DNA of 64,000 bases from NCBI GenBank assembly GCA_001189275.1, contig CP012158.1, positions 992,001 to 1,056,000 of the forward strand, given 5' to 3'. The stretch is from Pyrobaculum sp. WP30 (GTDB lineage Archaea > Thermoproteota > Thermoprotei > Thermoproteales > Thermoproteaceae). Under the pieces are notes generated by a model. That model searched no databases, was not told the origin of the DNA, and saw only the letters and a program-made list of their open reading frames with translations. A program made the position numbers and the translations under genes. Every line of letters begins with the position of its first letter. The first letter of the stretch is position 1. This document shows positions 10,381-33,366 of the stretch, in pieces.

Positions 10381-11274
10381 TTAAATATTTTCTAACGCGC
10401 CGCCCGCGACGGAGGCCACCTTGACCTCGGCGCGTATCCCCTCCTCGGCATAGGCCTTGGCCATGGCGTTCTTCACGGCGTCGCTGTGTTTCTCATCCAC
10501 CAGCGCAACGACGGAGGGGCCGGCGCCGGAGATGGCGACGGCCAAGGCCCCGGCCTCGGCGGCGTATCTCCTCAACCTGGCGTATCCGTGGACAAAGGGA
10601 GACCGGGCCGGCTCCACCACGTCGTCCCGCATGCCCAGTGCAACCAGCCGGAGGTCGGAGGAGGCTAGCCCCGCCACAAGCGCAGAAACCCGCGAAAGCT
10701 GAGCCACGTAGGTCCTAAACGGCACCTCCCGCGGCAACACGCCACGCATGAGCTTAGTCTTTTCAGGCATAGGCGGCACGTCGGGAACGCCCACCACGAA
10801 GGTAAGCCTCGGCGAGAATTTGACCACCTCAAGAGGCTGGGTAGAGACTATAACCACGGCGCCGCCGAGAGCCGCCGCCGCCACGTTGTCGAAATGCGGC
10901 GACCCGGCCGCCGCCGCCTCGCCGAGACCAGCCGCCTCCACCACAAGCCGCGGATCCACCCTCAGCCCCGCCTCCCGGAGAAAAGCCGCCAACGCCGCCG
11001 CCGAGGACGCCCCACTGCTGCCCAGTCCCCTCGCGATGGGGATTCTGTTATCCACCTCCACCTCCACGCCCCAGCAACGGCCAAGCCGCTCAAACAAGTG
11101 GCTGAAAGCCCTCTTCACCGTGTTGTCCTCCCCCGGGTCAAACCCCCTAAACCTGACGTGCACCCCGCACCCCGACCCCACCTTTACGTACGCCTCGGCG
11201 AAGTAGGCGTCGTGGGCGACGGCGACTACGTCGAAGCCAGAGCCCAGGTTGGCGCTGGTGGAGGGCGCCCTCAT
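10381..11274 (-). CDS. thrB: Homoserine kinase (GHMP family)
   Basis: Phosphorylates homoserine, the step before threonine synthase. The ATP-binding GHMP motif [16 protein letters not shown] is present, the N-terminus [16 protein letters not shown] is the diagnostic homoserine-kinase start, and the C-terminal motif [12 protein letters not shown] completes the site. 297 aa, normal for the family. Its ATG overlaps the upstream cyclase stop (ATGA), so the two are cotranscribed. Confidence 0.93.
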
Positions 11275-11903
11275 ACTAATGCAACAGCCCTCACAGGCGC
11301 CCCGCTGCCACCAGCCACCTTTACGGGAAGGCCTATGAACTGGCCGGAGCGCCCAACCACTGCGGCTAGGTTAGTGAGGTTTTCGTATATCAGAACTTCG
11401 CGGCTGAGCAAAATCTTATGTATCTCAAAAGGCGCGTGGTCGGGGCTCGGCGCGTCGACACCGACGGCGTTTACTCCAAGCTTGGCGAGGTGCTCCGCCA
11501 GCTCCGGCGAGAGGTCGGGATGCTCCAGCCACTTGTCGGTCCCCGCATACGCGTCGTAGCCAGTTCTTATCAGCACGACCCAGCCAGGCCCCAGCTCCAC
11601 GCCCCGCGGAAGCGCCTCCTCAAACTGCTTCAGCCCTATGGAGGCCCTCGGGGGGAGGTGGCTGAGGTCAACGGCGACAAACCTCCCGAAGAACTTAGAG
11701 AGATCTAGCTGGTCCACGGTCTTCGCGCCGGGGACGAAGTGGGCGGGGGAGTCCACATGCGTCGCCACGTGTTCTGGGAAGAACAACACGTTGCTGTAGT
11801 AGCCGTGGACGTCTATCTTGCTCCACTGCAGAACGGCAGGCCGTGGGTAGCCTGGAAACACAGCAGTCCCCGGCCCCACTGCCATGGTTAAGTCGACATA
11901 CAT
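11271..11903 (-). CDS. Cyclase-family metal hydrolase (kynurenine formamidase-like)
   Basis: 210 aa of the cyclase/KynB family. It shows the metal-binding [12 protein letters not shown] (canonical HxGTHxDxPxHF with Ala for Gly) and a second conserved part VVLIRTGYD and [10 protein letters not shown]. Family members hydrolyse N-formylkynurenine or related amides; the substrate here is unknown, and the thrB linkage does not point to one. The promoter TATA (agtatataag on plus, 11921-11930) is about 23 bases before the ATG. Cytoplasmic, no signal. Confidence 0.82.
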
Positions 11904-12018
11904 AGCTACGCGAAGGCCTAAGTATATAAGCCTGTCGCCTCTATATCAGAATACTTAAATAGTTGCACTTTACAAACAACAAATAAAATAGATAATACAC
12001 TGGTATTACTGGATCACT

Positions 12019-12026
12019 GTTATAAA
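12019..12026 (+). promoter_or_regulatory. TATA box of the structured RNA gene
   Basis: ttataaat, centred about 25 bases before position 12048, where the long terminal helix of the RNA begins. No protein start lies at a matching distance downstream. Confidence 0.6.
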
Positions 12027-12047
12027 TGTAGAACTACAGAATGATAA

Positions 12048-12190
12048 CCCACGGCGCTTAGCCGCCCCGGGCCTAACCCCCAAGGGCTCGCACCCTTGGA
12101 GGGAAACGGGGGATAAGCTGGCGGCGCTGGACGGGTCTACCCCGCCTGGCGTTGCCGGCGAAATCGGCGCCGACGGCTGGGCGTCGTGGG
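12048..12190 (+). ncRNA. Structured non-coding RNA candidate, class unknown
   Basis: The two ends pair in 17 consecutive base pairs (12048-12064 with 12174-12190; 14 Watson-Crick and 3 G-U). Inside are a hairpin CCAAGGG/CCCTTGG with loop CTCGCA (12080-12099), a small hairpin CGGG/CCCG (12132-12144) and a hairpin GCCG/CGGC with 7-nt loop GCGAAAT (12154-12168) extended by GGC/GCC. A TATA box lies 25 bases upstream and a T-rich stretch follows at once. It sits alone between a divergent cyclase promoter and the convergent SDR gene. It lacks tRNA, 5S and SRP signatures. The known minimal RNase P RNA of Pyrobaculum is a possibility, but I could not place its conserved regions. Confidence 0.6.
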
Positions 12191-12201
12191 ACTTCTCTTT
12201 T
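12191..12201 (+). terminator. T-rich terminator after the structured RNA
   Basis: acttctctttt directly follows the closing helix. Archaeal polymerase stops at pyrimidine/T-rich tracts such as this one. It lies between the RNA and the convergent SDR stop at 12204. Confidence 0.5.
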
Positions 12202-12203
12202 GT

Positions 12204-12896
12204 CTATGGCGTAATCAACCTCCTCCCCCCGTCTACCGGTATCAACGCCCCCGTCACCCACCTCGCCTCGTCAGTAAGCAACCACAGCACAACGTCGGCG
12301 ACGTGTTCCGGCGGCGCGGCGGGCGCCCCCAGCCTCGCGGCCTCCGCCTCCCTAGACATGGCGCCGGGCGCCACGCCGTTGACCCTAACGCCTCTGTCCA
12401 GAAGCTCTGCGGCTAAGGTCTCCACAAGGGCGGCAGCTGCGGCCTTGCTCACGGTGTAGGCCAAGGCGCCGGGGGACCTCTTGATGGGCCCCCAGATGGA
12501 GGTCACGAACACCACGGCGGACCCCGGCCTCATCAGCTTGAGGAAGGATTTGACGGTCCAGAGATGCGCCATTAGGTTGACCGAAAGCATGGAGTCCAGG
12601 ACCTCCTCCTCTGTTTCCTCAAGCCTCCCAGGCGCCCAGCCGCCCGCTGTGATGGCCAAGCCGTCTACACGGCCAAGCTCCCTCTCCGCGGCCTCCGCAG
12701 CGGCCTCGGCCCCCTCGGGCCTGGAGAGGTCAAACGCACCTGTCCTTATCCCAAGCGCCGCGAGGGGCTCCAGGTGTTCGCGCCGCCTCGCCACTGCGTA
12801 GACTTGGGCCCCTTCCTCCAGCGCGCGGCGCGCTACGGCGGAGCCCAGCCCGGGCCCCGCACCTGCCACCACCACGTTTCTGCCTCTGAGCCTCAT
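12204..12896 (-). CDS. Short-chain dehydrogenase/reductase
   Basis: 230 aa NAD(P)-dependent oxidoreductase of the classical SDR type. The nucleotide motif AGAGPGLGSA lies at residues 11-20, the NAG-like ITAGG near 82-86, and the catalytic Ser133, Tyr147 and Lys151 (YTVSK) are intact. The C-terminus VTGALIPVDGGRRL is the usual 'G....vDGG' end seen in FabG-like enzymes. TATA (cttatatg on minus, near 12920) is about 23 bases before the ATG. Substrate unknown; Arg37-38 after the second strand suggests NADPH preference. Confidence 0.88.
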   Translation of the reverse strand: MRLRGRNVVVAGAGPGLGSAVARRALEEGAQVYAVARRREHLEPLAALGIRTGAFDLSRPEGAEAAAEAAERELGRVDGLAITAGGWAPGRLEETEEEVLDSMLSVNLMAHLWTVKSFLKLMRPGSAVVFVTSIWGPIKRSPGALAYTVSKAAAAALVETLAAELLDRGVRVNGVAPGAMSREAEAARLGAPAAPPEHVADVVLWLLTDEARWVTGALIPVDGGRRLITP

Positions 12897-32022: not shown

Positions 32023-33366
32023 TCAGGAGGCTAGGACGCGTGTTAAGATGTCGGCTATTGTCTCCGGCATTGGAAGCGACGTGATGGTGGTCTGCGGCAG
32101 TAGTCTGCCGGCCACTGTGAACTGTACCATGTATACTCTGCGGCTAGCCAGATCCGGCACTATGCCCTTCACAGTCCTCTGGCTTAGCCATTGAGACAAG
32201 TCTGCGTCTAGCACAGAGCCAAGGAGATTTGTCGCCCTTAGGACGAAGGCGTGTAGAAGCACATCGCCTCTGTAGTTCGCGTTCTTCAACGCCGTGAGCA
32301 CGTCTCGCGTGGCTTGCGATATGGCGTAGCTGGGCATGTCGCCGCCGAAGGCGATGAACACGGCGTCGGGTCCGTAGGCCGCTATTTCCCGGGCCAAGGA
32401 GTTGGCGTCCCCGCTGTATACAAATATCTTGGTGGAGTTGGCCTTGGAGGCGGCGTAGGCGGCGCCGGAGAGGGCCACGCAGGCCGGGTCCATGCCCGTC
32501 ACTATGGCCACCTTGCCGTAGCCCTGGAACAAGACGGCTCCGGCTACCCTGCCTACGGTGGATCTCAGGAAGAGGGACTCGGCGTCTGTGTACCTCCTCA
32601 CGGCTTCGCCAGTCCGCCTGTCTATGTAGAGCCGGGGCGTCAAGGCGCCGGTGGTGGCGTTAAACTGCGAAATAATTACGTGCGTGGCGTTGAGGGTCAC
32701 CACATACACGGCCCTCCTCTTGACAAAGTCGGCCGTCCTCGTGTCGTTGAGCACAGTCTTGAAGCCGTTGGTGACGGCCCACGCCCTTGAGTGCACCACA
32801 AGCGCCCCGTTGAAGCCGGTCTTGGCCAGGGCGGCTAGGAAGTCCCGCAGGGACTTGTCAGCCACTGCGGCAGGCTCCTCGCCGCCGAAGGCCAAGAAGA
32901 CTGCAGAAGCCCCAGCGGCCGCCTGGGCTGAGGCGTCTGGCGCGGTGGCGTTGTACATCACCAAGTAGCCTCGGGAGTACGGCGGAAGCGAGGCGAGGGC
33001 AGAGGCGGCCAACGCCGAACACAACGTGTTGGGCTGAGTAACAACGGCAACCGTCTGGAACATGCCCAGGAAATGCCTCCCCACGAGAGAGCCCAGCTCC
33101 CTCCGGAGCGCCACGTCGGCTGCAGAGAGCCTCGGACTAGCCGTCACCGTCTGGGTCACAGGCACTGTCTGCGTAACCGTCTGCGTGGCGGTGGTGGCTA
33201 CAGTTTGCGTGACGGTGGTCTGGACGGTGGTGGCTACTGTTTGTGTGGAGGTCTGCACAACGGTGGTAGTGATAGTGGTGGGGGTCGCCAGGAGTCCGCC
33301 GCCTAGCAAAGCCCCTATCGCGATCCCCACTATCAGCCCTATTACTGCCAGTATGCCCGACTTCAT
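32023..33366 (-). CDS. Anchored extracellular binding-like protein, internally duplicated
   Basis: 447 aa. N-terminal membrane helix (about 5-27), then a Thr/Val/Gln-rich linker (about 30-75), then two Rossmann-like halves that repeat each other. FLAFGGEEPAAVADKSLRDF in the first corresponds to FIAFGGDMPSYAISQATRDV in the second, each followed by a 'G..L.H......N....VL.D' stretch. The pattern resembles periplasmic-binding or BMP/ABC-sugar type folds, but no transporter is adjacent. Ligand unknown. Confidence 0.6.
   Translation of the reverse strand: MKSGILAVIGLIVGIAIGALLGGGLLATPTTITTTVVQTSTQTVATTVQTTVTQTVATTATQTVTQTVPVTQTVTASPRLSAADVALRRELGSLVGRHFLGMFQTVAVVTQPNTLCSALAASALASLPPYSRGYLVMYNATAPDASAQAAAGASAVFLAFGGEEPAAVADKSLRDFLAALAKTGFNGALVVHSRAWAVTNGFKTVLNDTRTADFVKRRAVYVVTLNATHVIISQFNATTGALTPRLYIDRRTGEAVRRYTDAESLFLRSTVGRVAGAVLFQGYGKVAIVTGMDPACVALSGAAYAASKANSTKIFVYSGDANSLAREIAAYGPDAVFIAFGGDMPSYAISQATRDVLTALKNANYRGDVLLHAFVLRATNLLGSVLDADLSQWLSQRTVKGIVPDLASRRVYMVQFTVAGRLLPQTTITSLPMPETIADILTRVLAS

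Follow-up and report, generated by a model that had tools for sequence, protein, structure and literature searches.

The hyperthermophilic Thermoproteaceae have already yielded a minimal RNase P, type T, as well as the permuted circular SRP RNA, and RNase P type T is also present in Caldivirga and Vulcanisaeta. Among candidate RNAs from comparative genomics, Pyrobac-HINT is listed as probably cis-regulatory and without an Rfam number (Weinberg 2010, PMC2864571); the Rfam comparison reported here covers the numbered families. In H/ACA RNAs the ANA box is expected 14-16 nt from the pocket-closing pair (PMC4652768). The locus described here lies at 12047-12190 in the window (the whole stretch of 64,000 nucleotides of Pyrobaculum sp. 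WP30 DNA that was analysed) and is almost certainly a real, conserved structured RNA. The predicted RNA measures about 145 nt (from about 12047 to 12190 or beyond), and its four helices meet in a tight four-way junction. The features of the gene are as follows.

12003-12009, plus strand: conserved TATTAC-like promoter motif, GTATTAC, some 40-45 nt upstream of the 5' end of the RNA, at the same place in most copies
12020-12027, plus strand: TATA box TTATAAAT inside the conserved CACTGTTATAAA; a TATA element is present in all 20 copies
12047-12190, plus strand: structured RNA gene, matched by covariance model R1 at 12046-12193 with 128.8 bits
12048-12064, plus strand: closing helix P1, 5' strand; 17 pairs, two-sided changes in 11 model pairs among 20 copies
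12065-12069 and 12107-12111, plus strand: helix P2 (CCCC/GGGG); 98.8% of cells paired in 20 copies, little variation
12077-12103, plus strand: hairpin P2a, about 10 bp, variable in sequence and length, from single-sequence folds of each copy
12113-12116, plus strand: junction J2/3, AUAA; A[U/C]AA in most copies (alignment A2), lost in G009 and G017b
12117-12159, plus strand: hairpin P3, 19 bp, two-sided changes in 7 pairs
12160-12163, plus strand: junction J3/4, GAAA; NAAA in most copies (alignment A2)
12164-12173, plus strand: mini-hairpin P4, UCG-GCGC-CGA (UCGGCGCCGA), 3 bp, a 10-nt palindrome that is unchanged in 19 of the 20 copies
12174-12190, plus strand: closing helix P1, 3' strand, pairing with 12048-12064 and with the same covariation
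12193-12201, plus strand: T-rich tract TTCTCTTTT, putative terminator; a pyrimidine- or T-rich tract lies just after P1 in most copies

An earlier description of this locus from its letters alone (the sequence-only reading) had proposed a closing helix of 17 unbroken pairs. Read base by base, CCCACGGCGCUUAGCCG at 12048-12064 and CGGCUGGGCGUCGUGGG at 12174-12190 pair exactly as proposed, with 14 Watson-Crick and three G-U pairs (54-184, 58-180 and 59-179, window positions with 12,000 omitted). In a scan of the 64-kb window for helices that run for 17 or more pairs without a break inside 220 nt, P1 is the sole one with no more than three G-U pairs. The fold of 12040-12200 is markedly better than that of dinucleotide shuffles (z = -5.3; 0 of 200 shuffles equally good), and that of its reverse strand is weaker (z = -3.0). 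The scan's only other hit is a helix longer than P1, with 22 pairs of which six are G-U, at 33138-33236; it has an ordinary fold (z = -1.9) and belongs to a Thr-rich repeat within the coding gene at 32023-33366 (minus strand).

The helices differ in how they vary. P2 is near-invariant, and its alignment columns can by themselves neither prove nor disprove the helix. P2a is much extended, to more than 30 bp, in both copies of G003 and of G005 (loci L043, L044, L051 and L052), which suggests homogenisation between the paralogues. Within P3, position 131-145 is a conserved A.C wobble in most copies, a G.U in five and a G-C in one, and the A.C/G.U exchange looks like an isosteric wobble exchange. 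The P3 loop is GCAA in Thermoproteus and takes the form of other tetra- and pentaloops in Pyrobaculum. P4 varies only in G015b, by a compensatory change from U-A to C-G; an alternative pairing of P4 with the 5' strand of P3 is not kept in Thermoproteus and was rejected. In the aligned copies, sequence conservation is concentrated at the junction (AUAA, NAAA) and in P4, and the hairpin loops elsewhere vary. The copy in G009 (L047 1501-1641) has lost the AUAA strand and the usual P2 helix and has kept P1, P3 and P4; it is possibly a decaying or altered form.

The TATA box upstream and the T-rich tract behind the 3' strand, both named in the sequence-only reading, are present, and the gene indeed occupies a slot of its own between a divergent cyclase gene (11271-11903, minus strand) and a convergent short-chain dehydrogenase gene (12204-12896, minus strand). 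A TATA element lies 25-28 nt 5' of P1 in 20 of 20 copies, usually as ACTGTTATAAA with TATTAC upstream; in G009 the script chose another site, and TTAAATTT is present at about -26. The complete promoter (GTATTAC..TTATAAA) occurs a single time in its own genome at up to three mismatches, and the T-rich tract 3' of P1 is a probable terminator. The G+C content is 73% in the RNA, 32% in the leader and 58% in the window. The fixed TATA distance and the T-rich tract, together with neighbours that differ between genomes (see below), argue for an independent transcription unit.

Covariance model R1 was built from 19 copies (alignment A1, generated with MAFFT and independent of the model), and alignment A2 comprises 20 copies fitted to R1. 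Standard pairs make up 98.4% of the pair cells in the 20 copies. Two-sided changes occur at 20 of 40 pairs in A2 (shuffle mean 9.6) and in 67 cells, against 20.2 +/- 3.5 in shuffles, and 0 of 500 shuffles reached the observed value on any of five covariation measures. Sliding the partners by 1-3 columns abolished the covariation signal (slid controls 5-15), and the independent alignment A1 led to the same outcome with 18 pairs and 59 cells carrying two-sided changes. The check for compensating changes in related genomes, which had been suggested for the 17-bp helix, was thus answered by 20 copies in 15 genomes, half of the 40 pairs covarying. G-U and A-C cells at paired positions in the 20 copies stand at 72:9, which identifies the plus strand as the RNA; the reverse strand was discarded for its z of only -3.0 and the wrong G-U asymmetry.

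The distribution of the RNA was assessed by a DNA search of 41 related genomes, which gave strong matches within the genus and the family, and subsequently by a covariance search with R1. The latter found the 20 copies exclusively in Pyrobaculum and Thermoproteus, with two copies in five genomes and never more than two; among them are those at G016:C1:50495-50637, G007:C1:16932-17077 and G004:C1:49224-49370. This range agrees with the guess at Pyrobaculum in the sequence-only reading. The carriers comprise 15 of the 17 genomes of these two genera, including all 11 near-complete assemblies (at most 10 contigs), and of the 163 genera among 398 genomes sampled from the phylum, 2 have the RNA. A pattern scan of 84,980 species, rescored with R1, left only Pyrobaculum, Thermoproteus and one Thermoproteales MAG; carriers named among the matches of the wider scan are P. 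oguniense TE7 (CP003316), Thermoproteus sp. CP80, Thermoproteus sp. UBA157 and a Pyrobaculum MAG. Two viral hits of the pattern scan proved not to be real, and the scans of genome contigs and viruses yielded no genuine match beyond the order. A search of 20 genomes from the neighbouring families f2 and f3, run with laxer filters, was negative. At one carrier locus (L067, G008:C96) the contig stops 15 nt past the RNA, as though the assembly broke there.

Within the two genera the negatives are G006 and G014, each a fragmented assembly. Weak matches in G006, G011 and G014 are at chance level. Assembly breaks at the RNA may account for absences in fragmented assemblies. At the orthologous site in G006, thrB, the permease gene and the glycosyltransferase gene are contiguous and the RNA between them is missing, so the absence from that site is real. 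In G014 (99% complete, 210 contigs) the RNA was not found. With the G006 site empty and G014 negative, the RNA may not be essential.

The main copy in Pyrobaculum adjoins thrB (homoserine kinase), a cyclase gene usually being present as well, and is followed by a gene for a glycosyltransferase. In Thermoproteus the neighbours differ and are ferredoxin-type, metallo-beta-lactamase or permease genes. Second copies adjoin tpi, ATP-cone or DUF2192 genes on either strand and have retained fold and promoter; the one in the same genome as the window (G000:C1:894042-894185, locus L049; matched over 894062-894188 in the DNA search) is 82% identical and lies beside a DUF2192 gene. Two Thermoproteus genomes carry a diverged second copy immediately 5' of tpi, the gene for triosephosphate isomerase, and on its strand (L050 1501-1643, minus strand; L053 1501-1632, plus strand). 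In a tree of the copies, which is drawn from a short alignment and has modest supports, the G003/G005 pair is recent or homogenised (95% identical within the genome), the tpi-side Thermoproteus copy is old and diverged, and the G000b/G008b type groups closer to copies from Thermoproteus than to its own genome's copy at the thrB locus.

The 4227 families of Rfam 15 gave no match in the window at the gathering threshold, and at the RNA a permissive scan of the site and 15 relatives returned only isolated, inconsistent matches at chance level. The Rfam search that had been proposed as a check for this locus therefore leaves the 12047-12190 RNA without a matching family. A hint at RNase P did not hold. 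The CR-I-like GGAGGGAA is present at 12098-12105, but it lies within the variable hairpin P2a and is missing from relatives; no RNase P model scores at the site, and a cmscan of 11900-12300 up to E=10 gave no match to RNase P type T (RF02357). The true type T RNase P RNA is encoded at G000:C1:124896-125103 (192.7 bits), and with a separate gene and CR-I of the RNase P P4 core not conserved here this identity was rejected. The denial of SRP and tRNA signatures stood. The archaeal SRP RNA (RF01857) of the same genome is located at and around 1205553-1205726 (78.5 bits), no SRP match was returned at 12047-12190, and tRNA and tmRNA are ruled out by ARAGORN (0 genes in the window) and by Rfam. Pyrobac-1 (RF01722) was rejected since its two above-cut-off matches in the genome are both elsewhere.

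In typical copies the A[U/C]A that follows P2 is separated from the upper stem by about 9 nt, not 14-16 nt. Inspection by eye revealed no K-turn or K-loop and no tandem G.A in P2a or the apical loops, and the 3' pocket strand varies freely between species, so that guide strands are not conserved. An H/ACA or H/ACA-like guide RNA was rejected on spacing, K-turn/K-loop and guide conservation alike. The hammerhead was discarded as well. GAUAA..GAAA is reminiscent of its core, but the first position of GAAA is not constant, the CU that a hammerhead needs is missing and Rfam returned no hit. The features that define the family at this locus are the covarying fold of four helices, the TATA element at -25 to -28 and the UCGGCGCCGA of P4. 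The initial view, that a structured RNA of no recognised kind is encoded here behind a promoter of its own, is borne out by the covarying fold, the fixed TATA distance and the lack of an Rfam match. A literature search whose scope excludes the Bernick 2012 small-RNA study of Pyrobaculum did not find the RNA. By "new" we mean that it is absent from Rfam 15 and from the literature searched, and the word is claimed for sequence and fold only; should the RNA prove to serve a known machine, the claim of newness weakens.

In our preferred reading, to which we assign a probability of roughly 0.5, the locus would encode a trans-acting ncRNA of about 145 nt that serves as constitutive scaffold or core of an RNP specific to Pyrobaculum and Thermoproteus, with the junction and P4 as docking site. 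The sequence itself shows the transcription signals and one conserved fold, in which P1 (17 bp) closes a tight four-way junction with P2/P2a, P3 (19 bp) and P4 (3 bp). The long arms vary in sequence yet stay paired and would therefore serve as rigid struts; sequence is preserved in the A-rich strands of the junction and in P4, which makes these the likely place for a protein or another RNA to dock. The self-complementary GCGC loop of P4, part of a 10-nt palindrome, could let two copies dimerise. Whether to speak of a new ncRNA class, an RNP core whose near-invariant P4 at the four-way junction recruits a partner or dimerises the RNA, is for us an even bet. Against the RNP core stand the loss of the junction A-strands in G009 and G017b, the missing RNA at the G006 site and the negative result in G014.

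Losses of the RNA in some genomes fit a regulatory sRNA acting in trans, either by sequestering a protein or by pairing with mRNAs under particular conditions, as do the independent promoter, the varied genomic places, the one to two copies and the conserved single-stranded AUAA/NAAA of the junction. Nearly the whole molecule is paired, however, the possible seed loops vary and few conserved residues are left unpaired for antisense contacts, and we regard a regulator as unlikely, if the foremost of the alternatives. Conservation that peaks at the junction and P4, on arms that vary and yet remain paired, is also what a ribozyme or ligand-binding RNA with its active site in the junction would display. 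Such a function is improbable, given that Rfam offers no ribozyme or riboswitch match, that two copies have lost the A-rich junction strands and that neither an expression platform nor a consistent downstream gene accompanies the RNA.

The remaining explanations are less probable again. Self-duplication of a selfish or mobile structured element could explain why five genomes hold second copies at different places, and the affinity of G000b/G008b to Thermoproteus copies over the thrB-locus copy of their own genomes; copy number of at most two, a thrB locus stable across Pyrobaculum, the absence of a transposase among the neighbouring genes examined, the conserved promoter and the strand-specific RNA pairing make it very improbable. 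Slightly less credible still is the view that the RNA is a remnant of a universal RNA, or a helper to one, peculiar to this lineage (an RNase P S-domain in trans, SRP or an H/ACA guide). RNase P and SRP RNA do have odd forms in Thermoproteaceae, and the A[U/C]A after the P2 stem is ANA-box-like; the genes for type T RNase P RNA and for SRP RNA nevertheless lie at other loci, the spacing of about 9 nt, the lack of a K-turn or K-loop and the unconserved pocket strand speak against a guide, and the family of Caldivirga and Vulcanisaeta, with type T RNase P, gave no match to the RNA. The least probable alternative by our estimate is that the element works in cis for a gene next to it, as its 3' end or attenuator, or that the DNA forms a cruciform. 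The RNA is intergenic and lies 5' of thrB in G001 and of tpi in G015b on the same strand, but neighbours and orientation change between genomes, and the G-U:A-C ratio of 72:9 indicates an RNA from one strand, opposite to both neighbours in the window.

Our results add a further conserved RNA gene outside Rfam in model strains with published small-RNA reads, which makes it directly testable, and they raise the questions of which partner protein or process the RNA serves and why it is confined to the Pyrobaculum/Thermoproteus family. Among known systems it resembles RNase P type T (RF02357), which is likewise structured, GC-rich, found in Thermoproteales and similar in size, and shares with archaeal SRP RNA (RF01857) the long helical arms and an own TATA promoter. 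The H/ACA-like sRNAs of Pyrobaculum (PyrR/sR201-210) and Pyrobac-1 are also Pyrobaculum-specific ncRNAs in which a stem-loop is followed by an ANA-like triplet; they measure about 60 nt and occupy other loci, compared with about 145 nt here. The lineage-specific candidate RNAs of Weinberg 2010 (PMC2864571) likewise combine a covarying fold with a narrow clade and no assigned function. The 12047-12190 RNA differs from such comparative-genomics candidates in lying outside the families of Rfam 15 and in having a four-way-junction fold of its own.
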